DNA from: Candidatus Binatia bacterium
GTDB taxonomy: Bacteria > Desulfobacterota > Binatia > UBA12015
NCBI GenBank assembly: GCA_029248525.1
Contig: JAQWJE010000052.1
Span: 62,001-126,000 of the forward strand
DNA length: 64,000 nt
Direction of reading: 5' to 3'
Below the pieces are notes generated by a model. That model made no database searches and was not told the origin of the DNA. It saw nothing but the letters and a program-made list of their open reading frames with translations. Both the position numbers and the translations under genes were made by a program. Shown in pieces: positions 14,785 to 51,636 of this stretch (position 1 is its first letter; each line of letters opens with the position of its first letter).

Positions 14785-16965
14785 ATGTCGAGACTTCTCA
14801 TTGTATCCAACCGATTGCCGATCACGGTTTCTCGCGATGGGGCAGATTTGCGCGTCGAGCGGAGTGCCGGCGGTCTCGCCACCGGTCTTAGCGGACCGCA
14901 TTCGCGCTCGGATGCCCTGTGGATCGGTTGGCCCGGGGATGTGGCCGACTTTTCGCGACCTGAGCTGGAGGGGTTGCATCGGCGACTCGATGAGCTGCGG
15001 GCGGCACCCGTGTGGATCGAGTCCGAGGACGTCAAGGCGTTCTACGAAGGCTTCTCCAATGGCGTCCTCTGGCCGCTCTTCCATTACCTGCTCGACCAGT
15101 TGCCGCTCTATGTGGAACATTTCGACGTTTACGAAAGAGTGAACCGGCGCTTCGCCGACGAAGTCGGCAGGCATTATCGGCCCGGCGATCGAATCTGGGT
15201 GCACGATTATCAATTGATGCTTCTTCCGGCGATGCTTCGAGAGCGCTACCCGGACGCGCGCATCGGATTCTTCCTGCACATTCCATTCCCCTCGTCGGAA
15301 ATCTTCCGAATCCTTCCCTCTCGAGAGAAATTGCTCGAAGGCCTTTTGGGTGCGGACCTGGTCGGTTTTCATACGGCCGGATATATGCGCCAATTCGGCT
15401 CCTCGATCTTGCGTGTCCTCGGGGTGGCCGCAGACGTGGATCGCGTCCTCTATCAGGAACGAGAGGTTCGTCTGGGCGTTTTTCCGATGGGCATCGATGT
15501 CGAAAAATTCGTGGCGCTGACCGATTCGGATGAGGTCCGAACCCGCGCGTCCGAGTTGCGCGAAAAAATGGGCGAGAAGATTCTGCTCGGGATCGACAGG
15601 CTCGATTATACCAAGGGGATCCGACGCCGTTTACTGTCCTACGAGGCAATGCTGCGCCGGCACCCGGAGTATCATGGCCGGGTCCGATTGATTCAGGTAG
15701 CGGTGCCTTCGCGAGAGAGTGTCGACGCCTATCAGGAGTTTCGGCACGAAGTGGATGCCATGATTGGACGGATCAACGGACAGTTCGGGACTGCCGATTG
15801 GGTGCCGATCCATTATCTCTACCGCAGTCTGAGCGATGAAGAGTTGGTGTCGATGTACCGGGCGGCTGATGTGATGTTGATCACGCCTGTGCGGGACGGC
15901 ATGAACTTGGTGGCCAAGGAGTTTGTCGCGGCCCGTACCGACGACGACGGCGTCCTGGTGCTCAGCGAATTTGCCGGTGCGGCGAGTGAACTGGCCGAGG
16001 CCTTGATGCTCAATCCGTTCGATATCGATCGCTCTGCCGAAATTTTCGTGCGGGCCCTGGAACTTCCGGAGGAAGAGCGCCGAGCGCGCATGCGTGGCTT
16101 GCGAAGAAGGGTGCTTTCCTACGACGTGCATCGGTGGGTCGGCTCCTTTCTGGGCACCCTCGAGGAGGCAGTGGAGGGTGAGGAAGCCGTGGGGCGGATG
16201 GCGGCGGACTCTCCGGACCTCGCCAGTTTGGTCGAGAGCATGCGAGCCGCTCCGAAACTCCAATTATTACTCGGCTACGACGGCACGCTGGTCCCGGTTG
16301 CGGCCGTACCCGAACTTTCGACACCCGACGATGAGATTCTTGATCTCTTGCGGCGATTGGCTGCTCGCCCCAATACCGAGATTCATCTGATCAGTGGTGC
16401 GGCGAGAAAAACGATCGAAAATCAGTTTGGCGAGATCCCGATCGACCTGCATGCCGAATACGGATTCTGGTCGCGCGCGGCGGACAGCGACCAGTGGAAG
16501 TCGAGACCCAAGCCGGAAGATATGGATTGGTGGCAGCGAGTTCTCGACATCCTCGAGAATTTCACGGCGCGAACGCCGGGCTCTCTTGTCGAAGAAAAAA
16601 CGGTAACGCTTGCCTGGCACTACCGTTGGGCGGAAGCCGAGTTTGGTGCCTTTCAGGCCAACGAAATTCGCACCCATCTGGCGCAAATCCTGAGCAACTC
16701 TCCGGCGGAAATCGTATCGGATGCCAAGGTGATCGAGGTACGGCCCTTCGGTCTGGACAAGGGTACGGTGGTCAAGCCCTTGGTGGACGGACTTGCGAAC
16801 GGAACAATGGTAGTCGGGATGGGCGATGACCAGACCGACGAGGACCTTTTCGCCTCCTTGCCCGAGGGGGCTATCTCCATTCATGTCGGGGACGGCCGGA
16901 GTATTGCCACGACAAGAGTGCCGGATATTGAATCGGTTCGTCGGATGCTGGCCGGACTCCTTTAG
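14785..16965 (+). CDS. otsA: trehalose-6-phosphate synthase fused to a degenerate trehalose-phosphatase domain
   Basis: A 726-residue fusion. Residues 1-465 are a GT20 synthase that makes trehalose-6-phosphate from UDP-glucose and glucose-6-phosphate: [49 protein letters not shown] and [10 protein letters not shown] are all present. Residues about 490-726 are an OtsB-type HAD phosphatase, but key residues differ. The nucleophile Asp of DxDGT is Gly497 (GYDGT, codon GGC at 16273-16275), the SGR arginine position is Ala539, and AEHG reads AEYG (Tyr559). The Mg2+ motif GDDQTDED (680-687) remains. The synthase half should work while the phosphatase half is probably inactive, perhaps structural or regulatory as in many eukaryotic TPS proteins. 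No separate otsB is in the window. Confidence 0.92.
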
Positions 16966-23123: not shown

Positions 23124-24548
23124 TTATTCGATGTAGCCCAGAGCGCGCAGCTGTTCGCGGTAGCGTGGATTTGTTGATGCCGAGTTCTTTGCTGAGGTCT
23201 CGGCGTTTTGCACTCTTTCCCATTCCTCAATGGCCATCCTCTGCCAGCGGCTGGCTTCGGGATGATCGGTTGGTGAGAGAGGTTTGGTTTCGAACGGGTC
23301 CACGGAGCGGTCGAAAAAGAGATCGGGAGCCTCTGTCCGCAGGATATAGCGCTTGTCTGCATCGTGGATGGTCATGACCTCTCCCTCCGTCCATCCCAAC
23401 TTGAGACGCTTTGTGGATGCGGGTCGTCTTTGCGCGAAATTCAGACGGACCGGATACTGCGAAGCATCACCACCCGTCAGTCCGAGCAGGGAATAGCCCT
23501 TGCCTAGGGGCCATTGCGCTCCCGCGGCCTCGGCGATCGTTGCAGGAAGGTCCACGAGGCGAACGAGTTGCGGTACGCGGGTTCCGGGGTGTTCGAGATC
23601 AGCCGCGTAGTAGATCAGCGGCACGTGGAGTTGTTCGTGGTGCAGGTAGCGCCCATGCCCCATGCGTCCGCTCGTCAGAAGCCCCTCGCCGTGATCGGAG
23701 GTGACGAACCAACGCGTTTTCTCGGGGCCACAGAACTCGGGCAGGGCGCTGTGGAGTCGCTCCAATTCGCCGTCGACGTAGCGGATGCGCGTGTCGTAGT
23801 CGGAGACAGATGCGATCAGTTGGGGCAGAATACGCGTGGCCAACCGGGGTGGGACGCCGTGGTCCCGGTTGAGGATTTGTTCCCAATCGGGAGGTGATTG
23901 GCTGTTTCTTGCCAGCGCGTTTTTAGCGGCCGCATAATGGGGATCAGGTTCCATGGTCTTGTCGGCCGGCTGCATTTCTTGAAACTCATGGACGTCAAAG
24001 AAGTGCAGCCATAGAAACTTCGCTTCGTTTTTCGGGATTTTCTTGAGCCACGCCAGCGCATCATCGACCAGCCGGTCGCCGCGAGTGTACCCGGATTCGT
24101 TGGCCGTAAAATTTTCGAAACCCTGACCGATCTGGCGCAGCCAGCCGACGCTTGAAAATGCGCCCGTGCGATAGCCGGAATTTCGCATTTCGGTGGCGAT
24201 CGTCAGTGTGGACGCGTCGAGTCTGTCGCCGTTTTTTCGAACCCCATGCTCGGAGGGCGACAACGAGGTGAACAACGAGGCATGCGAGGGTGCCGTGTGT
24301 GAAGACGCGCTGAAGGCCTTCTCGAAGACCACGCCGCGCTCGGCGAGTCTCGTCAGAAAAGGAGCCGTGGCTCTCGGGTAGCCATACATCGGGAGATGAT
24401 CGGCTCGAAGGGTGTCGATGGTCACGGCAATGATGCAGTCCGCAGAATTTGAATTGGCTGTTTTGGGCTGCTCGGGTTGGCAGGCGAGACAAGATGCGAG
24501 CAGGAATGCTCCCAGGGCGCTTGTGAATGGGTGTCGGAATGCTGGCAC
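23124..24548 (-). CDS. sulfatase/alkaline-phosphatase superfamily lipoprotein with Thr in the nucleophile position
   Basis: A 474-residue lipoprotein (lipobox LLASC, Cys20) of the sulfatase fold. Metal site: AVTIDTLRADHLPMYGYPRATAPFLTRLAERGVVF. The nucleophile region reads SHTAPSHASLFTSLSPSEHGV. In true sulfatases it is C/S-x-P-x-R and matures to formylglycine, but here it is T85-A-P-S-H89, so formylglycine formation is not possible. Distal metal ligands: WFVTSDHGEGL and MGHGRYLHHEQLHVPLIYY. Thr-nucleophile relatives include phosphatases and phospho-group transferases such as LtaS-type enzymes, so a phosphoester or phospho-transfer reaction in the periplasm is more likely than sulfate release. 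It follows the pterin operon after 135 bases without a visible terminator, so read-through is possible. Confidence 0.87.
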   Translation of the reverse strand: MPAFRHPFTSALGAFLLASCLACQPEQPKTANSNSADCIIAVTIDTLRADHLPMYGYPRATAPFLTRLAERGVVFEKAFSASSHTAPSHASLFTSLSPSEHGVRKNGDRLDASTLTIATEMRNSGYRTGAFSSVGWLRQIGQGFENFTANESGYTRGDRLVDDALAWLKKIPKNEAKFLWLHFFDVHEFQEMQPADKTMEPDPHYAAAKNALARNSQSPPDWEQILNRDHGVPPRLATRILPQLIASVSDYDTRIRYVDGELERLHSALPEFCGPEKTRWFVTSDHGEGLLTSGRMGHGRYLHHEQLHVPLIYYAADLEHPGTRVPQLVRLVDLPATIAEAAGAQWPLGKGYSLLGLTGGDASQYPVRLNFAQRRPASTKRLKLGWTEGEVMTIHDADKRYILRTEAPDLFFDRSVDPFETKPLSPTDHPEASRWQRMAIEEWERVQNAETSAKNSASTNPRYREQLRALGYIE

Positions 24549-24683: not shown

Positions 24684-25418
24684 TCAGATCAGATAGCCGC
24701 CCGAAACCTTGATGTTGGTGCCGGTGGTATGGGCGGCGGCGTCGCTGCAGAGATAGAGCAGGGCACCGACCAGGTCTTCGCTGGTCCCCGGGCGGCCCGC
24801 GGGAATGCGCTCCAGAGGGACCTCTTTTTCCGAGTTCGCAAGAACGCCAGGCGAGATCGCATTGACAGTGATGCCATGCGGGGCTTCGTTTTTAGCCATG
24901 GATTTCGTCAGCACCCAGGTGGCTGTCTTGCCGATCTTGTAGGGGGTCGCAAAGATCACGGGTGCCAGCGCGTCGGCGTCGGCGTCCAGAATGTTGATGA
25001 TGCGTCCAAAGCCGCGAGCCCGCATGCCGCAGGCCGCTGCGCGCGAAGTGTTCCACGTGGAGGTCACCGTACCGTCAATGCAGCGCTGCCAATCCGCAGG
25101 TGTGATTTCGTCGAGCGTCTTCCAGACAATGACGCCGACGTTGTTCACCAGAATCTCGATCGACCCGAGTGCGGTTTCGGCGGCCTGAATTGCGTTGGCG
25201 GCTTGGTCCGCTTGTGTCAGGTCGGCCTGAACGGCGAGAGAGCGGCGTCCCATCGCTTCGATCTCCGAGACGACGTTGTGGGCGGCTTCCTCGTTGGTGT
25301 GGAAGTGAATCGCGACGTCCGCTCCCGAGCGGGCGAGGCCGAGTGCCAGATCGCGCCCGGTGCGGTGGGCGGCTCCGGTGACGAAGGCGTTTTTTCCTGA
25401 CAGCGGCGTATCGCTCAT
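24684..25418 (-). CDS. SDR oxidoreductase, candidate pteridine reductase (FolM/PTR1-like)
   Basis: A 244-residue short-chain dehydrogenase. Cofactor loop: NAFVTGAAHRTGRDLALGLARSGADVAIHFHTNEEAA, where the basic residues HRTGR and the H-x-H-T end suggest NADPH use. NNVGVIVWKTLDEIT is the structural NNxG motif. The active-site region has ILDADADALAPVIFATPYKIGKTATWVLTKSMAKN: the Y-x-x-x-K pair is present (YKIGK), while the usual catalytic Ser is replaced by Asp-rich residues, as in pteridine reductases of the PTR1/FolM type. The C-terminus ends GTNIKVSGGYLI. The start overlaps the DHPS-like stop as ATGA. This operon position supports reduction of a dihydropterin product. Confidence 0.82.
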   Translation of the reverse strand: MSDTPLSGKNAFVTGAAHRTGRDLALGLARSGADVAIHFHTNEEAAHNVVSEIEAMGRRSLAVQADLTQADQAANAIQAAETALGSIEILVNNVGVIVWKTLDEITPADWQRCIDGTVTSTWNTSRAAACGMRARGFGRIINILDADADALAPVIFATPYKIGKTATWVLTKSMAKNEAPHGITVNAISPGVLANSEKEVPLERIPAGRPGTSEDLVGALLYLCSDAAAHTTGTNIKVSGGYLI

Positions 25419-26248
25419 GAAGTCTCCGCGGCGTTGTGGCGCAGGAGTGCGCGCAAGGTGGAGGGATCGTGCGTGCGGATATAGTCGGCGCGCGCATGGA
25501 GGACAGAAGACGCCATCATGATGCGTGCCAATCTTTCGGGTTTGCGGGCGGCATAGAAAAGCAGCGGGCAGCCCAGCGCGCGGAGTCGGTCCGCTTGCCA
25601 GACGATCTCGAGTTGCCGGTGGATTTTTTCGAAGTCATCCGTCTCGGGGTGAATGATTCCCAGATTAGGGTCGATGATCACGTCTTCGATCCCGGCACGA
25701 TGGGCTTCGGCTACCCGTGGTTCGAGTGATTCCAGAATCGCCCCGACGGCATCTGTCGGCGCCGCGAGACGCGGGCGAGTGCGCATTTCATAGGCATTGC
25801 CGTAGGGCATATGCGTGAGGATCAGAGAGGCCTTGGCTCCGGCAATCGCTGCGAGCATTTCGGCCGAGGCATGTTGCCCGGTGAAGTTTATGACGTCTGC
25901 TCCCCAGTCCACGGCGGCGCAGGCGGTGTCCGGCGACCACGTGTCGATCGAGAAGGGAATTCTATTTTCGCGCAAGCGCCGGGCGGCAGGTTCCAGGCGC
26001 CGTTGCTCCTCCGGGTCGCCGATCTGCGGCGCATCGGGAGTAATCGATCGGCCACCGAGGTCGATGATGGAGGCGCCATGAGATTGAAGATCGAGAGCTC
26101 GAGCGAGGGCTTCGTCCGGGGTGTGCGCGATTGAATCCTCGACCATGGATTCCGGCGAGAGATTCACGACACATAGAAGTTTCGGGGCATAAGGTTCCGC
26201 AGCGGGGCGATTGCCGACCTCGGCCGAACGAGACTCAGCGGTTGTCAT
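25415..26248 (-). CDS. divergent dihydropteroate synthase-like protein
   Basis: A 277-residue TIM-barrel of the pterin-binding (DHPS) family. Positions that contact pterin or phosphate in E. coli FolP appear kept: Asn29 (VVNLSPES), Asp102 (SIDTWSP), Asn121 (VINFTGQ), Asp193 (IIDPNLG), Arg235-Lys236 (YAARKPE) and Arg258 (YIRTHDP). The two loops that build the p-aminobenzoate site are changed: NxTPDSF reads NLSPESM, and GGESTRPGA reads GGRSITPDA, losing the conserved Glu and Thr. DPGxGFGK also reads DPNLGIIH. It probably binds a pterin but may use another acceptor or be non-canonical. The start used (26248) overlaps the PTPS gene by 14 bases; a GTG at 26269 is an alternative. Confidence 0.82.
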   Translation of the reverse strand: MTTAESRSAEVGNRPAAEPYAPKLLCVVNLSPESMVEDSIAHTPDEALARALDLQSHGASIIDLGGRSITPDAPQIGDPEEQRRLEPAARRLRENRIPFSIDTWSPDTACAAVDWGADVINFTGQHASAEMLAAIAGAKASLILTHMPYGNAYEMRTRPRLAAPTDAVGAILESLEPRVAEAHRAGIEDVIIDPNLGIIHPETDDFEKIHRQLEIVWQADRLRALGCPLLFYAARKPERLARIMMASSVLHARADYIRTHDPSTLRALLRHNAAETS

Positions 26249-26738
26249 CACTCCGGTACTCGCAGACACCGCTTTGCCCGCTGGTCTCCGAAATCGCGAC
26301 GCGAAGGCGACGAACCTGCGTCGCGCCGAATTTTTCCACCAAGCGTCCCCTCAGAGTATCGCTGAACCAGGTCGCCAGGTTTTCGACAGAGGTATTATTG
26401 ATCGGGAGGTGCACGACCTCGGGACTTGGGACGAGGTAGCGACAGTCTCGATAGACCACGCTCGTATGATTATCTTCCAACTCGGTAATCTCGAGTTCGG
26501 GATGCTCGGACGGCAACAGCCAATGTTCATCGAGAGAGTCGCAGAGCTCGCGGATGACCGGCTTGGCATCAATGAAGTCGATGACCAGCCCCTTCTCGCT
26601 GAGGTCGCCCTCGATCTCGACGCTTACATGGTAATTATGACCATGCAGTCGCTCCTTGGAGCCATCCGGAAAGATCAGGAAATGTGCGCAGGAGAACTTG
26701 AAGTACTCCTTGCTCAAGGTGATTGCCCAGTTGTTCAT
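26235..26738 (-). CDS. 6-pyruvoyltetrahydropterin synthase family protein, PTPS-III-like
   Basis: A 167-residue T-fold enzyme acting on dihydroneopterin triphosphate. Zinc ligands are His19 (FKFSCAHFL) and His32/His34 (LHGHNYHVSVEIEG). The residue before HGH differs from QueD and mammalian PTPS: no Cys at the C-x-x-x-HGH position, and Glu29 in E-R-L-HGH instead. That E-x-x-HGH form defines PTPS-III, known to cleave dihydroneopterin triphosphate directly to 6-hydroxymethyl-dihydropterin and so bypass FolB. VIDFIDAKPVIRELCDSLDEHWLLP and NNTSVENLATWF are normal family blocks with the catalytic Asp/His and pterin-anchoring Glu regions. First gene of the minus-strand operon PTPS-DHPS-SDR; divergent from the glycosyltransferase 178 bases away. 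Confidence 0.85.
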   Translation of the reverse strand: MNNWAITLSKEYFKFSCAHFLIFPDGSKERLHGHNYHVSVEIEGDLSEKGLVIDFIDAKPVIRELCDSLDEHWLLPSEHPELEITELEDNHTSVVYRDCRYLVPSPEVVHLPINNTSVENLATWFSDTLRGRLVEKFGATQVRRLRVAISETSGQSGVCEYRSDDNR

Positions 26739-26916
26739 TTTGGTCTGACGCTTCGATTCCGAGCTTGGCGGGACGTAGTTTCAAGGTCCTGACAGCGATT
26801 CCCTGCTCAACGGCAAAACTACTCCGAGCCATACGGATCCGCAAGCCGCACCTTCGGGGCTGGCCTTGCCTGCCTCACAAGCGCGGGTTTTTATTTTGCG
26901 GTAGAGTTTTTCCGGC

Positions 26917-28125
26917 ATGTCCGATTTTCACCAGAATGGCGCCGTCACGACCCTGCACGATCTGGGCGGCGGGAATCGTGCGGCCCTCGAGGGACTCCTT
27001 GCCGAAGCAGCTCTCGACTACAAGATGGGCTTGGTCCTGCCCGTGACTGCTTCCGATTTGCGGGCCGAGCCCTTTGCGCGAATTGTCGAATCCCTGCGTG
27101 GGGTCAACTACATCGATCAGATTTGTGTCGTGCTGGGGCAGGCTCCGGCCGAGCAGGACTATCTCGATGCGCAGAAGTTGGTAAGTCCCCTCGGGCCGCG
27201 GGCGCGAGTCCTCTGGAGCAGCGGCCCTGTCGTTCAGGCTGTCTACCGGGAACTCACCGAAGCCGGTTTCCCGCTGGATGTGCCGGGCAAGGGGAGATCG
27301 GTCTGGACCGCGTTTGGCTACCTGATGGCAGATCCGCGGCTGAAGGCCTTTGTTCTGCACGATTGCGATATCGTGGACTACGACCGCATTTTGCTGGCTC
27401 GCTTATGCTTGCCCATGGCGCATCCCAATCTGGATTTTGAATTCACCAAAGCGTTTTACCACCGCAGTTCGGACCGCATGTATGGTCGCGTGGCGCGCCT
27501 TCTGGTTTCGCCGCTTTTACAAAGTTTGATTTCCGTATTGGGTAGCGATCCGTTCCTGCTCTTTCTCGAGAGCTTTCGCTATCCGCTCTCCGGTGAATTC
27601 GCGATATCTTCGGCTCTCGCCCGTTCCAATCGGATCCCCGGTGATTGGGGGCTGGAAATCGGCACGCTGGCCGAGGTCTTCCGCAACACCGCAGCCAAGC
27701 GCGTCTGTCAGGTCGACCTGGGCATTACCTACGACCACAAGCATCAGGATTTGTCGCTGGCAGACCCGGGACGAGGTCTGATGAAAATGGCTGCAGATAT
27801 CGTGGGCACGGTATTTCGCACGTTGGCGAGTCGCGGTCAGGTGATCGATGCCACTCTCGTCTCCACGTTGCGGGCCGCCTATCTGCGCTGCGCGCAGGAT
27901 CGAATCCGACAGTATCATGCCGATGCTGTGGTCAACGGGCTTGTCTATGACCGTCAGGCAGAGGAGCAGATCGTCGACGGCTTCGCTCGCCAGATGGCCA
28001 CAGCCGGAGAGGCCTTTCGGGCGGACCCCCAGGGTGGGGCGGCGATCCCCAACTGGGCGCGTGTGCTGACCGCCTTCCCGGATCTGCCGGCCCGGCTACG
28101 AGCCGCGGCGTCCGATCCGGCTTGA
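26917..28125 (+). CDS. GT81-like glycosyltransferase, candidate glucosyl-3-phosphoglycerate synthase
   Basis: A 402-residue GT-A fold enzyme. MGLVLPVTASDLRAEPFARIVESLRGVNYIDQICVVLG is the nucleotide-sugar entry strand, GKGRSVWTAFGYLM the GKG loop of GpgS/MpgS enzymes, and FVLHDCDIVDYDR contains the metal-binding D-x-D. Later FRYPLSGEFAISSALARSNRIPGDWGLEIGTLAEVF resembles the GEYA...GYGVEIGLL acceptor/metal region of glucosyl-3-phosphoglycerate synthases, and DLGITYDHKHQDL carries the late metal His. GpgS links glucose to 3-phosphoglycerate for the osmolyte glucosylglycerate or for methylglucose polysaccharides. The assignment is by motif only, and mannosyl transfer is an alternative. No dedicated GpgP is adjacent. 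Confidence 0.75.
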   Translation: MSDFHQNGAVTTLHDLGGGNRAALEGLLAEAALDYKMGLVLPVTASDLRAEPFARIVESLRGVNYIDQICVVLGQAPAEQDYLDAQKLVSPLGPRARVLWSSGPVVQAVYRELTEAGFPLDVPGKGRSVWTAFGYLMADPRLKAFVLHDCDIVDYDRILLARLCLPMAHPNLDFEFTKAFYHRSSDRMYGRVARLLVSPLLQSLISVLGSDPFLLFLESFRYPLSGEFAISSALARSNRIPGDWGLEIGTLAEVFRNTAAKRVCQVDLGITYDHKHQDLSLADPGRGLMKMAADIVGTVFRTLASRGQVIDATLVSTLRAAYLRCAQDRIRQYHADAVVNGLVYDRQAEEQIVDGFARQMATAGEAFRADPQGGAAIPNWARVLTAFPDLPARLRAAASDPA

Positions 28126-44123: not shown

Positions 44124-45533
44124 ATGGGTAGAAGTCTTCTCGATAAAGTATGGGATCTGCATACCGTCCGCGAAATGGAATCCGGACAGACGCAATTATT
44201 CGTCGGACTCCATTTGATCCATGAAGTCACCAGTCCCCAAGCCTTCGCGATGATCCGTGAAGCGGGTTTGCCGGTCGCCTTCCCGGAGCGCACGTTTGCA
44301 ACAGTCGATCATATTATTCCGACAGATGATCAGACCAGGCCGCTTCGCCACGGACAGGCCGAAACCATGATGGCTGCTCTGGAGAACAATACAAAAGAAT
44401 ACGGCATCGAGTTTTTCGGTCCCGATTCCGGGGCGCAGGGCGTGGTTCACGTGATTGGCCCGGAAATGGGTCTGACCCAGCCGGGCATGACAATCGCGTG
44501 TGGGGATAGCCACACGAGCACGCACGGGGCCTTCGGCGCCGTGGCCTTCGGGATCGGTACCAGCCAGGTCCGGGATATTCTGGCGACGCAATGTCTCGCG
44601 ATGGAACGCCCCAAGACCCGCCGCATCGAAGTGCAGGGTGAATTGCGCCAGGGTGTTTATCCCAAGGACGTGGCCTTGCACATCATCCGGAAGCTGGGCG
44701 TGAAGCATGGAGTGGGCTACGCCTACGAATACGCGGGCGATGTCTTTGACGCCATGAGCATGGAAGGGCGGATGACCGTCTGCAATATGTCGATCGAGGG
44801 TGGCGCGCGTTGTGGTTACGTCAATCCGGATGAAAAGACTTTTGCCTACCTCAAGGGGCGTCGCTTCGTCCCGTCGGGCGAGGATTTTGAAAAGGCCGTA
44901 GCGTGGTGGCGCGAGATCGCCTCGGATGCAGATGCCGCCTATGATGATGTGGTTTCGATCGATGCCGCCGAAATTTCTCCGACCGTAACCTGGGGAATCA
45001 ACCCCGGACAGGCGATCGGGGTAGGCGAGCATATTCCCGAAGCCAACGATTTCTCCGAAGATGAAAAGGCTGTGGTGGTCGACGCCTACGACTACATGCA
45101 CTGGACTTCGGGCGATGCCATCCATGGCACGCCGATCGATGTTGCCTTCATCGGATCCTGTACGAATGGTCGCATCGAAGATCTCCGGGCAGCAGCGGCG
45201 ATCGCTCGGACCGGCAAGGTTGCGCCGGGCGTCAAGGCTCTGGTGGTGCCGGGCTCGCAAGAGGTGGCTCGTCAGGCGGAATCCGAAGGGCTGCACGAGA
45301 TCTTCAAAGCCGCTGGGTTTGAATGGCGCCTCGCCGGATGTTCGATGTGTCTGGCAATGAATCCGGATAAACTGCAGGGCGATCAGGTCTGCGCTTCCTC
45401 GAGCAATCGTAATTTCAAGGGTCGCCAGGGCAGTGCGACCGGTCGGACTCTTTTGATGAGCCCGGCGATGGTCGCAGCAGCGGCGATTTCCGGTCGAGTA
45501 GCCGACGTCCGGCAGGTCCTTTCGGAGGGATGA
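44124..45533 (+). CDS. leuC: 3-isopropylmalate dehydratase large subunit
   Basis: A 469-residue aconitase-family subunit carrying the [4Fe-4S] cluster; with LeuD it isomerises 2-isopropylmalate to 3-isopropylmalate in leucine synthesis. Signature segments: [45 protein letters not shown], and the cluster cysteines in [14 protein letters not shown] and [14 protein letters not shown]. Normal length. A 10-base palindrome CTATCGATAG (44111-44120) lies immediately upstream of the start; its meaning is unknown. The stop overlaps the leuD start as ATGA. Confidence 0.97.
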
Positions 45534-46174
45534 GTTCAATGACGGAAACAGAGAAATCCGGATTGCGTCCGGTCACTGGCGTCACAGGACACCCGGTGCC
45601 CCTGCGCGGCAACGATATAGATACCGACAGGATCATCCCGGCACGCTTCATGACGGCGATTACGTTTGATGGAATGGGGGAACTCGCTTTCTACGATGTT
45701 CGTTTCGATGCCGACGGCAACGAGGTCGAACATCCGATGAATGATCCGAAGCATCGTGCCAAAGGCCCGCAGGTGGCGGTGGTGAACAAGAATTTCGGCT
45801 GCGGTTCATCCCGAGAGCATGCGCCTCAGGCAATGCATCGCTGGGGCGTTCATGCGATCGTCGGCGAATCCTTTGCCGATATTTTCTTCGGGAATTGTGT
45901 CGCACTAGGGATCCCCTGTCTGACTCTGGACACAGCCGATATCGAAAAGCTGATGGCCGCTGTCGAGCAGGAGCCTGCTCAATCGTTGGCTGTCGACGTT
46001 GAGAAAAATGAGGTCCGGCACGGAGAAACCGTGTATTCCGGAACGATGCCGGCTTCTGCGCGCGAACAATTCCTCAGCGGGAATTGGGACGCTACCGGTG
46101 CCTTGCTGTCGGCCCTGCCCGAGGTGCGATCGACGGCTGCCAAATTGCCTTATACGAGAGGGTTCGCGGGCTGA
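45530..46174 (+). CDS. leuD: 3-isopropylmalate dehydratase small subunit
   Basis: A 214-residue swivelling domain subunit of isopropylmalate isomerase. Hallmarks: [65 protein letters not shown], followed by the C-terminal extension typical of the proteobacterial type. Translation is probably coupled to leuC by the overlapping ATGA; an internal ATG three codons later (SSMTETE) is an alternative. No leuB or leuA is adjacent in the window. Confidence 0.97.
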
Positions 46175-47515: not shown

Positions 47516-49477
47516 ATGGCGTTTGCGGTTGCAGGACATTCACAGGCAAAAATTTCGCCGGGGCTTCTCGCTCGGGCGCGCGAGGCGGTGGAAAAGTCTC
47601 GAGAATTCTTGCTGCGCCGGCAGGCCGTCGAGGGGCATTGGCATTTTTCGATGGAAGCCAATGCGACGATGGATGCGCAATATATCTTCTTCAACCGCCT
47701 GCACGGCAGAGAGAAGCCAGCCGAGGAAAAACGTCTCGGCCTTCATTTGCTTGCCACGCAGGGGGCCGACGGCGGTTGGCCGCTTTTCCACGGTGGCCCC
47801 GGACACCTATCGGCCAGCATCGAGGCCTATTTTGCCCTGAAGCTTCTGGGGTATTCCCCCGAGGATGAACCTCTGCGGCGGGCGTGCGAGTTCATCCACG
47901 GACAAGGGGGGCTTGCGCAGGCTCAGGTCTTCACACGCTTCTTTCTGGCTTTCTTCGGCCAATTCCCATGGGAGGGTGTGCCCGCTCTCCCGCCCGAGAT
48001 CATGCTCTTGCCGGATCGGTTTCGGTTCTCGATTTACAATATGTCGAGCTGGGCGCGTTCGACGGTGGTGCCCTTGCTCATTCTCGGCCAACACCGTCCC
48101 CGTGTCGTGATCCCGGCCGAGCAAGGCTGCGCGGAATTATGGGTTGGCTCCGAAGTAGCTGACGATTTTTCGTTTCCACCGGCGGAAGAGACAATTTCGT
48201 GGAAGAATTTTTTCGTGCAGGCAGACAAGGTTTTCCGCTTGCTCGACCGCCTGCCGACCTCGTGGCGTCGAGCCGGGCTGGAGCGGGCCCTGCATTGGGT
48301 TCTGGAGCGCCAGGATTGCAACGGAGGTTGGGCCGGGATTCAGCCGGCCATGATCAACTCGGTCCTCGCGCTGCGGGCCATGGGATGCGCCGCAAATCAC
48401 CCGGCGGTCGTCGCGGGTCTTGAGGCCATCGATGATTTTCTCGTGGAACGAGACGGACACCTGCTTTTCCAGCCCTGTGTTTCGCCCACCTGGGATACCG
48501 CATTGATCGTGCGGGGATTGCTTGACGCGGGCGAAAGTCCCGACTCGGAGGCGGTCACTTCGGCGGTGCGCTGGCTTGAAAAGGCACAGATCCGACGGGA
48601 GGGGGATTGGGCGGTGAAAAGGCCCGATCTGCCCGCGGCGGGTTGGGCCTTTGAGTACGCCAACGATTTCTACCCGGACGTGGATGATTCAGCAGTCATT
48701 CTGATGTCGCTGCACCTCGCCGGTCGCGCCGACACGGATTGCTTCCGGGATGGCTATGCCTGGACTGTCGGGATGCAGAGTCGGGATGGCGGTTATGGTG
48801 CGTTCGACGTCGACAACGACAACCACGCATTCAACGAACTACCTTTCGCTGACATGAAGGCCCAGATCGATCCGCCGACCGAAGATCTGGCCGGACGCCT
48901 TCTGGAATTGATGGGGCAAACAGGATCCTCGGCGGAGGAACCCCGACTCGTCGCTGCCCGGCGATTTCTTCGCAAAACACAGCAGCCGGACGGTTCCTGG
49001 TGGGGGCGCTGGGGCGTTAATTATATTTACGGAACCTGGTCGGCTTTGCTCGGTTTGCGCGCGGTGAATGCGCCCGAGGACGAGGATATGCTGGCCCGCG
49101 GTACCTCGTGGCTCAAATCCGTGCAGAACGAGGACGGCGGCTTTGGCGAAACTTGCGCCTCCTACAAGGACCCCGATCTGCGATCGGAGGGCGCAAGCAC
49201 GGCCTCGCAGACGGCATGGGCGCTGATGGGAATTCTGGCCGGAGAACAGCAGTCGGGCAAAGCGGTCGAGGATGGCATCGATTTCCTCTGCCGCTCCCAG
49301 GCTGACGACGGAAGTTGGCCGGAACCTGAATTTACCGGGACGGGTTTCCCGAATCATTTCTACCTTCGTTACGACGGCTACCGTTGTTTTTTCCCCTTGA
49401 TGGCTCTGGGGCGGTTTGTCGCGATGGCTGAGGACAAAACTCCCTCTGCGTATGCAGGGGCGGAGCAAGCACAATGA
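47516..49477 (+). CDS. shc: squalene-hopene cyclase
   Basis: A 653-residue class II triterpene cyclase (HpnF) that folds squalene into hopene/hopanol. The catalytic acid motif D-x-D-D is DVDD at 388-391 (NDFYPDVDDSAVIL). QW-type repeats stabilising the alpha-barrel are seen, for example QDCNGGWAGIQ, QSRDGGYGAFDVDN, QQPDGSWWGRWGVNYIYGTW, QNEDGGFGETCASY and QADDGSWPEPEFTGTGFPNHFYLRY. Length is usual. A G-run ending GGATC precedes the ATG. It is the first gene of a plus-strand operon shc-mvaS-hpnC-hpnD-hpnE-hpnB, all joined by overlaps or gaps of a few bases, under a promoter with two TetR-type operators. Confidence 0.97.
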   Translation: MAFAVAGHSQAKISPGLLARAREAVEKSREFLLRRQAVEGHWHFSMEANATMDAQYIFFNRLHGREKPAEEKRLGLHLLATQGADGGWPLFHGGPGHLSASIEAYFALKLLGYSPEDEPLRRACEFIHGQGGLAQAQVFTRFFLAFFGQFPWEGVPALPPEIMLLPDRFRFSIYNMSSWARSTVVPLLILGQHRPRVVIPAEQGCAELWVGSEVADDFSFPPAEETISWKNFFVQADKVFRLLDRLPTSWRRAGLERALHWVLERQDCNGGWAGIQPAMINSVLALRAMGCAANHPAVVAGLEAIDDFLVERDGHLLFQPCVSPTWDTALIVRGLLDAGESPDSEAVTSAVRWLEKAQIRREGDWAVKRPDLPAAGWAFEYANDFYPDVDDSAVILMSLHLAGRADTDCFRDGYAWTVGMQSRDGGYGAFDVDNDNHAFNELPFADMKAQIDPPTEDLAGRLLELMGQTGSSAEEPRLVAARRFLRKTQQPDGSWWGRWGVNYIYGTWSALLGLRAVNAPEDEDMLARGTSWLKSVQNEDGGFGETCASYKDPDLRSEGASTASQTAWALMGILAGEQQSGKAVEDGIDFLCRSQADDGSWPEPEFTGTGFPNHFYLRYDGYRCFFPLMALGRFVAMAEDKTPSAYAGAEQAQ

Positions 49478-50739
49478 AGATTGGTATTGATAGAATTGGG
49501 GCCTATGTGCCTTCCGAAGTTTTGCGAGCCGAGGTTCTTGCCGAAGCGCGGGATATTCCGCTCGGGAAGCTCAAGGATGGCCTTGGCGTCCATGCGATGG
49601 CCGTCGTCCCGCCCTGGGAAGACACCGTCTCGCTCGCAGCCAATGCGGGCCTTCGCGCGCTCGGCGACGACGTCGCCGCTGAGGAAATCGGGTTGTGCAT
49701 TGTTGGCACCGAATCGGGGGTCGATCACTCCAAGCCTACTGCAATTTTCGTTCACGAATTATTGGGGCTTCCTTCGAATTGTCGGACCTACGAGGTCAAA
49801 CACGCCTGTTTCGGAGGGACTGCGGCTCTGCTCACCGCGATGGACTGGATCGCTTCGGGATCGGCACGGGGGCGCAAGGCTTTGGTGATCGCGAGCGATA
49901 TCGCAAAATATCCTCCGGGGTCGGCGGGCGAACCTACGCAGGGGGCCGGTGCTGTGGCGCTGGTTGTCTCCGAGAATCCGGCGCTGGTCGAAATGGACCG
50001 AAGCACGACCGGCGTGTTCGCAGGGCAGGTCCATGATTTTTGGCGGCCTCTCGACCAGACTCAGGCGATTGTTGACGGCAAGTACTCGGTCGACTGCTAC
50101 CTCGAGGCGCTGGAGCATGCGTTTGCCGACTATGCCCGTCAGCAGGAAAGTGAGGATAACGGAGAGCCGCTGTCCGATCGATTCGCGCGTCTCATTTTTC
50201 ATGCTCCGTTCCCGCGAATGGCATCGAAGGCGCATACCCGAATGGTTGTGGATGATTGGCAGTCTAATTCGGCTCGGTCCGCCCAGCTCCCGGAAGATCT
50301 GACCGAACTGGTGGAGAAGGATGCCGGGGAGCGTGTGGACCCAACTTTATGGGCCACCCGTTTGATCGGGAACACCTACACCGCATCGATGTATTTTGGT
50401 CTCGCCGCAATATTGGAGCGAGAGGCGGCCGAGCTGGAAGGCAAAACTCTCGGATTCTTTTCCTATGGCAGCGGGTGTTGTTCGGAATTTTTTGCGGGCC
50501 AAATTGTTGAGGGTGCCTCCCGCGTTGCCGAGAAAATTGGTCTCGGCGAATTGCTGGAGAGGCGCAAGGAAGTATCGATGGCCGAATATGAGCGGCATCA
50601 TGCGAAGTCGGATTTGCGTGCGACGGAAAACCCCGAGAAGCCGGGCAGCCATTTCGCCGGACCAATTTATTTCGCCGGAACCATCGACGAGAAAAGAACA
50701 TACGCTTCGCACGGTCGTGGGGCCTCGGTGGCGCGGTGA
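49474..50739 (+). CDS. mvaS: hydroxymethylglutaryl-CoA synthase
   Basis: A 421-residue thiolase-fold enzyme condensing acetyl-CoA and acetoacetyl-CoA to HMG-CoA, the committed carbon-skeleton step of the mevalonate route. The catalytic triad of MvaS is present: Glu80 (IVGTESGVDHSK), Cys112 (EVKHACFGGTAAL) and His243 (LIFHAPFPRMASKAH). The start GIDRIGAYVPSEVL and the late NTYTASMYFGLAAIL and GKTLGFFSYGSGCCSEFF blocks are typical of the bacterial type. It overlaps shc as ATGA and is four bases from hpnC, so it is an integral member of the hopanoid operon. That placement is unusual, since mevalonate genes are normally elsewhere and most hopanoid producers use the MEP route. Confidence 0.93.
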   Translation: MKIGIDRIGAYVPSEVLRAEVLAEARDIPLGKLKDGLGVHAMAVVPPWEDTVSLAANAGLRALGDDVAAEEIGLCIVGTESGVDHSKPTAIFVHELLGLPSNCRTYEVKHACFGGTAALLTAMDWIASGSARGRKALVIASDIAKYPPGSAGEPTQGAGAVALVVSENPALVEMDRSTTGVFAGQVHDFWRPLDQTQAIVDGKYSVDCYLEALEHAFADYARQQESEDNGEPLSDRFARLIFHAPFPRMASKAHTRMVVDDWQSNSARSAQLPEDLTELVEKDAGERVDPTLWATRLIGNTYTASMYFGLAAILEREAAELEGKTLGFFSYGSGCCSEFFAGQIVEGASRVAEKIGLGELLERRKEVSMAEYERHHAKSDLRATENPEKPGSHFAGPIYFAGTIDEKRTYASHGRGASVAR

Positions 50740-50742
50740 TTT

Positions 50743-51636
50743 GTGGATGAGCTAGGCAAGGCCTACGCCCGCTGCGAAACCATCGCTGCGGCGCACTATG
50801 AGAATTTCCGGATTGGGTCATGGCTGATGCCCCGCGGAAATCGTCGTCATCTCGCGGCTCTCTATGCGTTCGCTCGCGGAGCTGACGACCTGGCAGATGA
50901 GCCGGATGCCCCGGTGGACCGCCTTGGTGCCCTGAATCGATGGGAAGATGAGTTGGATCGAGCAATCGCAGGGGAGAGCGACGAACCCGTGTTCGTGGCG
51001 ACCGCCCATACCTTGCAGGTGAAGGATCTGGATATTTCCCACCTGCGCGATTTGTTGCGCGCCTTCCGCTACGATGCGGCCTTCGTCCCTTACGCGGATT
51101 ATCAGGCCCTTCGTGCTTACTGCGGGAACTCGGCCAATCCGGTCGGCCGACTCGTCTTGCGATTATTTGATGTCCGCGATTCAACAGCTGATGCTCTGTC
51201 CGACGAAGTTTGTACCGGCTTGCAGTTGGCGAACTTCTGGCAGGATCTTTCGGTGGATCTGCCCCGCGGTCGAAGCACACTCCCCCTCGCCGATCTGGAT
51301 GCCTATCCGGGAGCCAGGCTTGCCTTGCAATCGGGAGAGGCCAATCCTGCGTTTCGGGAGTTGATGGAACTGGAGATCGGTCGCACCCGGCGTTCTCTTT
51401 TGTGCGGCTACGAACTCGCGTCCATTTTGCCGCGGAGGGCGGCTTTTGAAATTCGATGTTTCACGGGTGCCGGCCTTGCGATTCTGGACAGTATCGCGGC
51501 GGGAGTTGAGGATTTATTGAAGCATCGCCCGATTGTTCGGAGTTGGGATCAAATCCGGATTTTCACGGGAGCCTTGTGGCCGCCGCGTGAAATTCGTTCG
51601 GCAAAAATTGCCCTCGCAGAGGTAGAAAGATGTTGA
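50743..51636 (+). CDS. hpnC: hydroxysqualene synthase HpnC
   Basis: A 297-residue trans-isoprenyl synthase that converts presqualene diphosphate to hydroxysqualene. Start is GTG at 50743, four bases after mvaS. The first Asp-rich motif is ALYAFARGADDLADEPD; the second lies in GLQLANFWQDLSVDLPRGRSTLPL, where the usual DVGEDxxRGRxY is changed to D-L-S-V-D-L as in other HpnC. ENFRIGSWLMPRGNRRHLAALY is the opening block. It overlaps hpnD by seven bases. Confidence 0.95.
   Translation: MDELGKAYARCETIAAAHYENFRIGSWLMPRGNRRHLAALYAFARGADDLADEPDAPVDRLGALNRWEDELDRAIAGESDEPVFVATAHTLQVKDLDISHLRDLLRAFRYDAAFVPYADYQALRAYCGNSANPVGRLVLRLFDVRDSTADALSDEVCTGLQLANFWQDLSVDLPRGRSTLPLADLDAYPGARLALQSGEANPAFRELMELEIGRTRRSLLCGYELASILPRRAAFEIRCFTGAGLAILDSIAAGVEDLLKHRPIVRSWDQIRIFTGALWPPREIRSAKIALAEVERC

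Follow-up and report, generated by a model that had tools for sequence, protein, structure and literature searches.

A pterin operon of Candidatus Binatia links a PTPS-III enzyme, probably a FolB bypass, to a DHPS-like protein with a divergent second-substrate side

DHPS is the target of the sulfa drugs, and p-aminobenzoate (pABA) and its close analogues are, to our knowledge, the only familiar second substrates of this enzyme. In tetrahydromethanopterin biosynthesis, there is already a condensation of the DHPS type that uses an arylamine different from pABA. Besides their canonical folP, mycobacteria carry a second, non-complementing one, folP2, that lies near a gpgS gene. Among the PTPS proteins of COG0720, PTPS-III, which includes the Plasmodium PTPS and the bacterial enzymes that bypass FolB, is recognized by the signature ExxHGH (PMC5041015). 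Reductases of the PTR1/FolM type are marked by TGX3RXG, and FolM usually reduces dihydropterins, not dihydrofolate, where FolA is present (PMC1971073). In the literature searched, no paper describing an operon of PTPS, DHPS and pteridine reductase was found. The trio of genes analyzed here is a variant of these known pterin enzymes, not a new kind of system.

The window (the whole stretch of 64,000 nucleotides that was analyzed) encodes proteins 99–100% identical to those of the matching contig in "Deltaproteobacteria bacterium UBA12015", a draft genome that belongs to the same species or to a close relative. The preliminary description reported a serially overlapping trio of PTPS-III-like, DHPS-like and pteridine-reductase-like genes, and the three minus-strand ORFs were indeed all recovered (Table 1). 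The PTPS gene and the DHPS-like gene (hereafter DHPSl, as is its product) overlap by 14 nt with the ATG at 26248, and the DHPSl/SDR junction is an ATGA with a 4-nt overlap. A GTG at 26269 is an alternative start for DHPSl, with a 35-nt overlap, but the ATG is favored by the "MTxA" N-terminus conserved in the same-family orthologues. Since the gene set, the gene order and purifying selection across the trio (dN/dS 0.06–0.20) are all conserved, this arrangement goes far beyond chance. When the operon was scanned for promoters and terminators, none was found, and the region between the operon and the divergent gene showed no sigma-70-type site.

Table 1. Coordinates of the operon genes and of their immediate neighbors in the window.
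Feature	Position	Strand	Basis or context
Sulfatase-family gene, lipoprotein-like start	23124–24548		Between SDR and sodium-solute symporter gene
SDR, FolM/PTR1/TmpR type	24684–25418	-	adh_short; NF012208 217.7 bits
DHPSl	25415–26248	-	PF00809 (Pterin_bind) 107.6 bits; TIGR01496 126 bits
PTPS-III family enzyme, first gene of the operon	26235–26738	-	PF01242 84.9 bits; ExxHGH; Plasmodium PTPS relatives
Intergenic region, PTPS operon/divergent GpgS-like gene	26739–26916	.	Flanking ORF coordinates
Glucosyl-3-phosphoglycerate synthase-like (GpgS-like) gene, divergent	26917–28125	+	NF040724 329 bits (cut-off 700); synteny

The genes that flank the trio do not seem to take part in the same pathway. 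The sulfatase-family gene, previously suspected of being read through from the trio, is missing from the three same-family orthologous loci, which rules it out as the fourth gene of the operon. The GpgS-like gene has no Pfam match and scores far under the cut-off of its model. It is conserved at the same-family trio loci but not at the Myxococcota ones; this loss of neighborhood led us to reject it as a pathway member, and it is probably outside the pathway. Its position beside DHPSl recalls the mycobacterial folP2-gpgS pair. Elsewhere in the window, a fused OtsA-OtsB trehalose synthase/phosphatase (14785–16965) suggests, together with the GpgS-like gene, compatible-solute synthesis, and genes for a squalene-hopene cyclase, an HMG-CoA synthase-like protein and a squalene/phytoene synthase lie in series as a hopanoid/isoprenoid cluster (47516–51636). 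A leuC and leuD-like pair, named from the sequence by eye, is located about 18 kb from the trio (44124–46174); leuCD-like genes are also found near DHPSl/SDR at several Myxococcota trio loci (L187, L191, L193 and L194).

The inventory of folate genes was made on a genome that is 98.9% complete in 59 contigs and, as are all the genomes compared here, is an unannotated draft. It contains three Pterin_bind genes: metH, DHPSl and a canonical folP, located in the order tilS-ftsH-folP-cdaA-ybbR-glmM and whose product reaches 300 bits with the DHPS model TIGR01496 (cut-off 162.6). DHPSl is therefore not the only folP-like gene of the genome; its being the only one was one half of the case that the preliminary description had set against its own interpretation. 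FolK and FolA are encoded elsewhere in the genome, FolB was not found in it, and the trio gene is its only PTPS. The preliminary description had suggested that the operon may make a pterin cofactor other than folate, or a folate analogue, because no FolK, FolE, FolC or FolA is nearby and the DHPS is atypical. None of FolB, FolK, FolA and canonical FolP is indeed encoded beside the trio; however, since FolK and FolA are present elsewhere and the fol genes are scattered in this genome, their absence next door says little.

The PTPS protein carries the motif E29-R-L-H32-G-H34, i.e., ExxHGH, with three His at the zinc-site positions, and lacks the Cys that is found in QueD and PTPS-II; its closest solved structures are those of Plasmodium PTPS. 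These features agree with its earlier assignment to PTPS-III, and KERLHGH is present in the PTPS proteins of all 12 trios. Because FolK, FolA and canonical FolP are present but neither FolB nor a second PTPS is found, this protein is most likely the FolB bypass of the cell, feeding folate. A PTPS dedicated to an exotic product was ruled out by the single PTPS gene and the absence of FolB, so the term "dedicated" that had been applied to the operon does not hold for its first gene, which probably serves folate. Across the 39 genomes searched, which comprise this one and others of its family and class, FolB is missing from 35 and a PTPS is present in 38, so that the bypass appears to be used by the group as a whole.

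Unlike other PTPS-III proteins of COG0720, the trio PTPS belongs to a clade of its own, is tied to DHPSl and replaces the native PTPS-III of the family: it clusters, with 98/98 support, with the PTPS of a second set of bacteria and separately from the native type of its own family. One genome, G011, has both native PTPS-III and trio PTPS (L168, L006). The presence of this clade across groups and of both types in G011 suggests that the trio PTPS was acquired by transfer and then displaced the native one. The two types in G011 may correspond to a displacement intermediate or to contamination of the draft (4%).

In each of the 12 intact loci, which span two bacterial groups, the PTPS and DHPSl genes are neighbors. 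Four of these DHPSl come from the own family, where the genes form an operon, and eight from a group that includes SP3084, a genome classified in Myxococcota, where they are divergent. Among 20 genomes around SP3084, FolB is found in none of the eight Myxococcota-group genomes in which PTPS and DHPSl are intact versus nine of the 12 others (hypergeometric 0.0013, relatedness ignored). Conversely, G172 has FolB, has lost PTPS and keeps DHPSl and SDR only as fragments. Since FolB is lacking where the pair is intact and present in this relic-only genome, the first gene of the trio behaves as a FolB substitute. In G172, the one case seen, DHPSl did not outlive PTPS; the relics of DHPSl and SDR (L195, 7500–8200) show a trio caught in decay. 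The PTPS and DHPSl genes would move and survive as one unit. In the SP3084 genome (G148), canonical FolP (L176) resembles Sul2, reaching 302 bits on the Sul2 model (cut-off 575), and is a chromosomal relative of the sulfonamide-resistance DHPS.

The 12 full DHPSl orthologues form a single clade with 100/100 support and a long branch. They do not reach the TIGR01496 equivalog cut-off of 162.6 (126, 129 and 100 bits), and the DHPS of the trio, already described as atypical, is a diverged second paralogue beside canonical FolP. Its dN/dS of 0.15–0.19 indicates an intact, selected protein. The AF2 model has a confident DHPS TIM-barrel fold (pLDDT 91.8) and superimposes on 7s2k (Sul2) with a Z of 29.4 and an rmsd of 2.2 over 248 residues; the structures nearest to it include Sul2/Sul3.

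Residues were compared between the 12 DHPSl and 77 canonical FolPs (E. coli numbering). All nine pterin/pyrophosphate-site positions (N22, S27, D56, D96, N115, D185, K221, R255 and H257) are kept in the 12 DHPSl. By contrast, the 12 proteins all differ from 76–77 of the 77 FolPs at seven positions, through the substitutions T24S, D26E, F28M, G31D/E, D116F/Y, G187N and S219A. All 12 also carry T62I and R63T in loop 2 as well as F190I, and have a Ser at position 32 versus a Gly in 74 of the 77 FolPs. A Pro adjoins K221 in the 12 DHPSl where FolP has S222, in a region in which, as near M139, the alignment may be off by one or two columns; the T/S62, R/N/H63, F190 and S222 states of FolP are all missing from the 12 proteins. 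DHPSl retains S61, P64 and the R220-K221 pair. In published complexes, the kept residues correspond to pterin and Mg/pyrophosphate contacts and the changed positions to loops 1 and 2 and to the pABA side (PMC3098144, PMC10328974). The set of loop 1, loop 2 and pABA-contact residues that marks FolP is not retained as such in any of the 12 DHPSl. Taken as a whole, DHPSl resembles FolP and Sul1-4 by its TIM-barrel fold, its pterin and pyrophosphate residues and its R-x-H and RK motifs, but differs from them by: (i) loop 1 (NLSPESM versus N[VI]TxDSF), (ii) loop 2 (GGRSITPD versus GGESTRPG-type), (iii) N[FY]TG versus ND[IV], (iv) DPNLGI followed by an insert versus DPG.GFGK, and (v) ARKP versus SRKS. 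We infer from these sequences that DHPSl acts on a pterin diphosphate and has an altered second-substrate side. It stays far under the cut-offs of the curated Sul models and was consequently rejected as a Sul-type resistance gene.

The best NCBIfam model for the SDR is NF012208 (TmpR, dihydropteridine/dihydrofolate reductase), far ahead of the next one (158 bits). The protein contains TGAAHRTG, an Asp where most SDRs have a Ser, and YKIGK, matching the Tyr-x-x-x-Lys of FolM/PTR1/TmpR, and TGX3RXG is found in all the intact orthologues checked (7/7), which supports its description as pteridine reductase-like. Unlike FolM, PTR1 and TmpR, it is under the TmpR cut-off (217.7 and 246 bits for two SDRs versus 325) and only 23% identical to E. 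coli FolM. A role as sole DHFR was ruled out for the own genome, where FolA is present. The SDR gene is intact in G150, in G153 and at all four loci of the own family. It is truncated at a contig end in G151 and broken in G149 and G222, while G148, G155 and G160 have no SDR gene next to DHPSl. In G222 (L192, 9161–9350), a large internal deletion joins in frame the first ~28 and the last ~33 codons. Since it is broken or absent in several lineages that keep DHPSl, the SDR is an optional and the least tightly linked member of the trio, and tetrahydro reduction by this protein is not essential to the role of DHPSl.

We propose, with a confidence that falls just short of even, a two-purpose operon centered on PTPS-III, in which folate supply is combined with a side branch where DHPSl uses a non-pABA acceptor and the SDR is optional. 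PTPS-III would convert 7,8-dihydroneopterin triphosphate to 6-hydroxymethyl-7,8-dihydropterin in place of FolB, a step well supported by the gene content, and FolK, canonical FolP and FolA encoded elsewhere in the genome would then carry this compound to folate. DHPSl would take 6-hydroxymethyldihydropterin diphosphate from the shared FolK, ionize it as DHPS does and attach the pterin to a nucleophile that is not pABA. Such a nucleophile is proposed because a different, invariant set of residues has replaced both loops and the pABA side, whereas the pterin/pyrophosphate contacts have been left untouched. Where present, the SDR of FolM/PTR1 type would reduce the dihydropterin or the conjugate to its tetrahydro form. 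In the specific form that we put forward more tentatively, DHPSl makes 7,8-dihydropterin-CH2-NH-X instead of dihydropteroate and the SDR reduces it to a tetrahydropterin cofactor, an undescribed folate analogue that branches off the PTPS-III folate pathway. Since PTPS is shared with folate, the operon alone is no proof of a new product: the non-folate end product suggested in the preliminary description is not supported for PTPS and is retained as a possibility for DHPSl only.

The nature of the acceptor has to be weighed against a second folate line, in which DHPSl uses pABA to produce dihydropteroate in a remodeled pocket that may resist sulfonamides and the SDR serves as an additional dihydrofolate/dihydropteroate reductase, insensitive to compounds of the trimethoprim type, giving a backup or antifolate-tolerant route. 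The association of PTPS-III with folP-like and folM-like genes is a folate-pathway-like set, and several folM-like genes cluster with pterin-branch folate genes (PMC1971073). TmpR is the best model of the SDR, Sul2/Sul3 are among the structures nearest to DHPSl, and the DPxxG motif of DHPSl is followed by an insertion, in the region of the Phe-Gly insertion of Sul enzymes (PMC10328974). By analogy with sulfa-insensitive DHPSs, which change the pABA side yet use pABA, DHPSl, where S61, P64 and R220-K221 are kept, could still use this substrate. However, the Sul enzymes keep the Mg/pyrophosphate and pterin residues of FolP (PMC10328974), whereas DHPSl exchanges near-fixed residues of loops 1 and 2. 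A second line is also unneeded where canonical FolP and FolA are present, and the SDR was lost in several lineages that retain DHPSl. We therefore regard this second line as unlikely, albeit the most serious competitor of a non-pABA acceptor.

Rather improbable in our opinion is a non-enzymatic DHPSl that acts as a pterin-binding partner, such as a sensor or chaperone for PTPS-III or for the flux of pterins. Such a role would be comparable to mycobacterial FolP2, another second DHPS-like protein in genomes with canonical folP, and an E. coli folP mutant is not complemented by folP2 of M. leprae (PMC1971073). It would also fit the persistence of DHPSl with PTPS where the SDR is lost and its relic state in G172, where PTPS is gone. 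However, the residues of catalytic geometry and pyrophosphate binding (N22, S27, R255, H257, D96, D185 and K221) are fixed in the 12 DHPSl, and the changed loops are invariant too, which fits a specific second substrate better than a lost function. Moreover, FolP2 is less similar to DHPSl (2vp8, 36 bits) than many catalytic FolPs: unlike FolP2, DHPSl is nearer to ordinary FolPs and has PTPS-III and SDR as partners. As 2vp8 scores under many FolP1-type chains, DHPSl was not retained as a FolP2 orthologue. Finally, the DHPS fold and the PTPS-III partner are compatible with a DHPSl that condenses the pterin with ribofuranosylaminobenzene phosphate on the way to a one-carbon cofactor of the methanopterin type, and some archaeal PTPS-III act in tetrahydromethanopterin synthesis (PMC5041015). 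Unlike in that pathway, no RFAP synthase was found over the cut-off in the 20 genomes searched, including the 12 with the pair, although the controls were positive in four archaea, and the DHPS-like model TIGR00284 gives only 23 bits on DHPSl (cut-off 257). A methanopterin-type product is very improbable, since RFAP synthase was not found.

Overall, the preferred reading, i.e., folate supply by PTPS-III with a side branch through DHPSl, makes this locus of interest in several respects. A monophyletic DHPS clade that has kept the pterin half and exchanged the pABA half, and that is linked to a pterin-making enzyme, is a clean test case for a change of acceptor. DHPSl gives a tangible starting point in the search for a possible folate analogue and, judging from its sequence, the operon may build a folate-like compound so far undescribed. 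Furthermore, the exchange between PTPS and FolB shows how a housekeeping step can be taken over by a transferred bypass enzyme.
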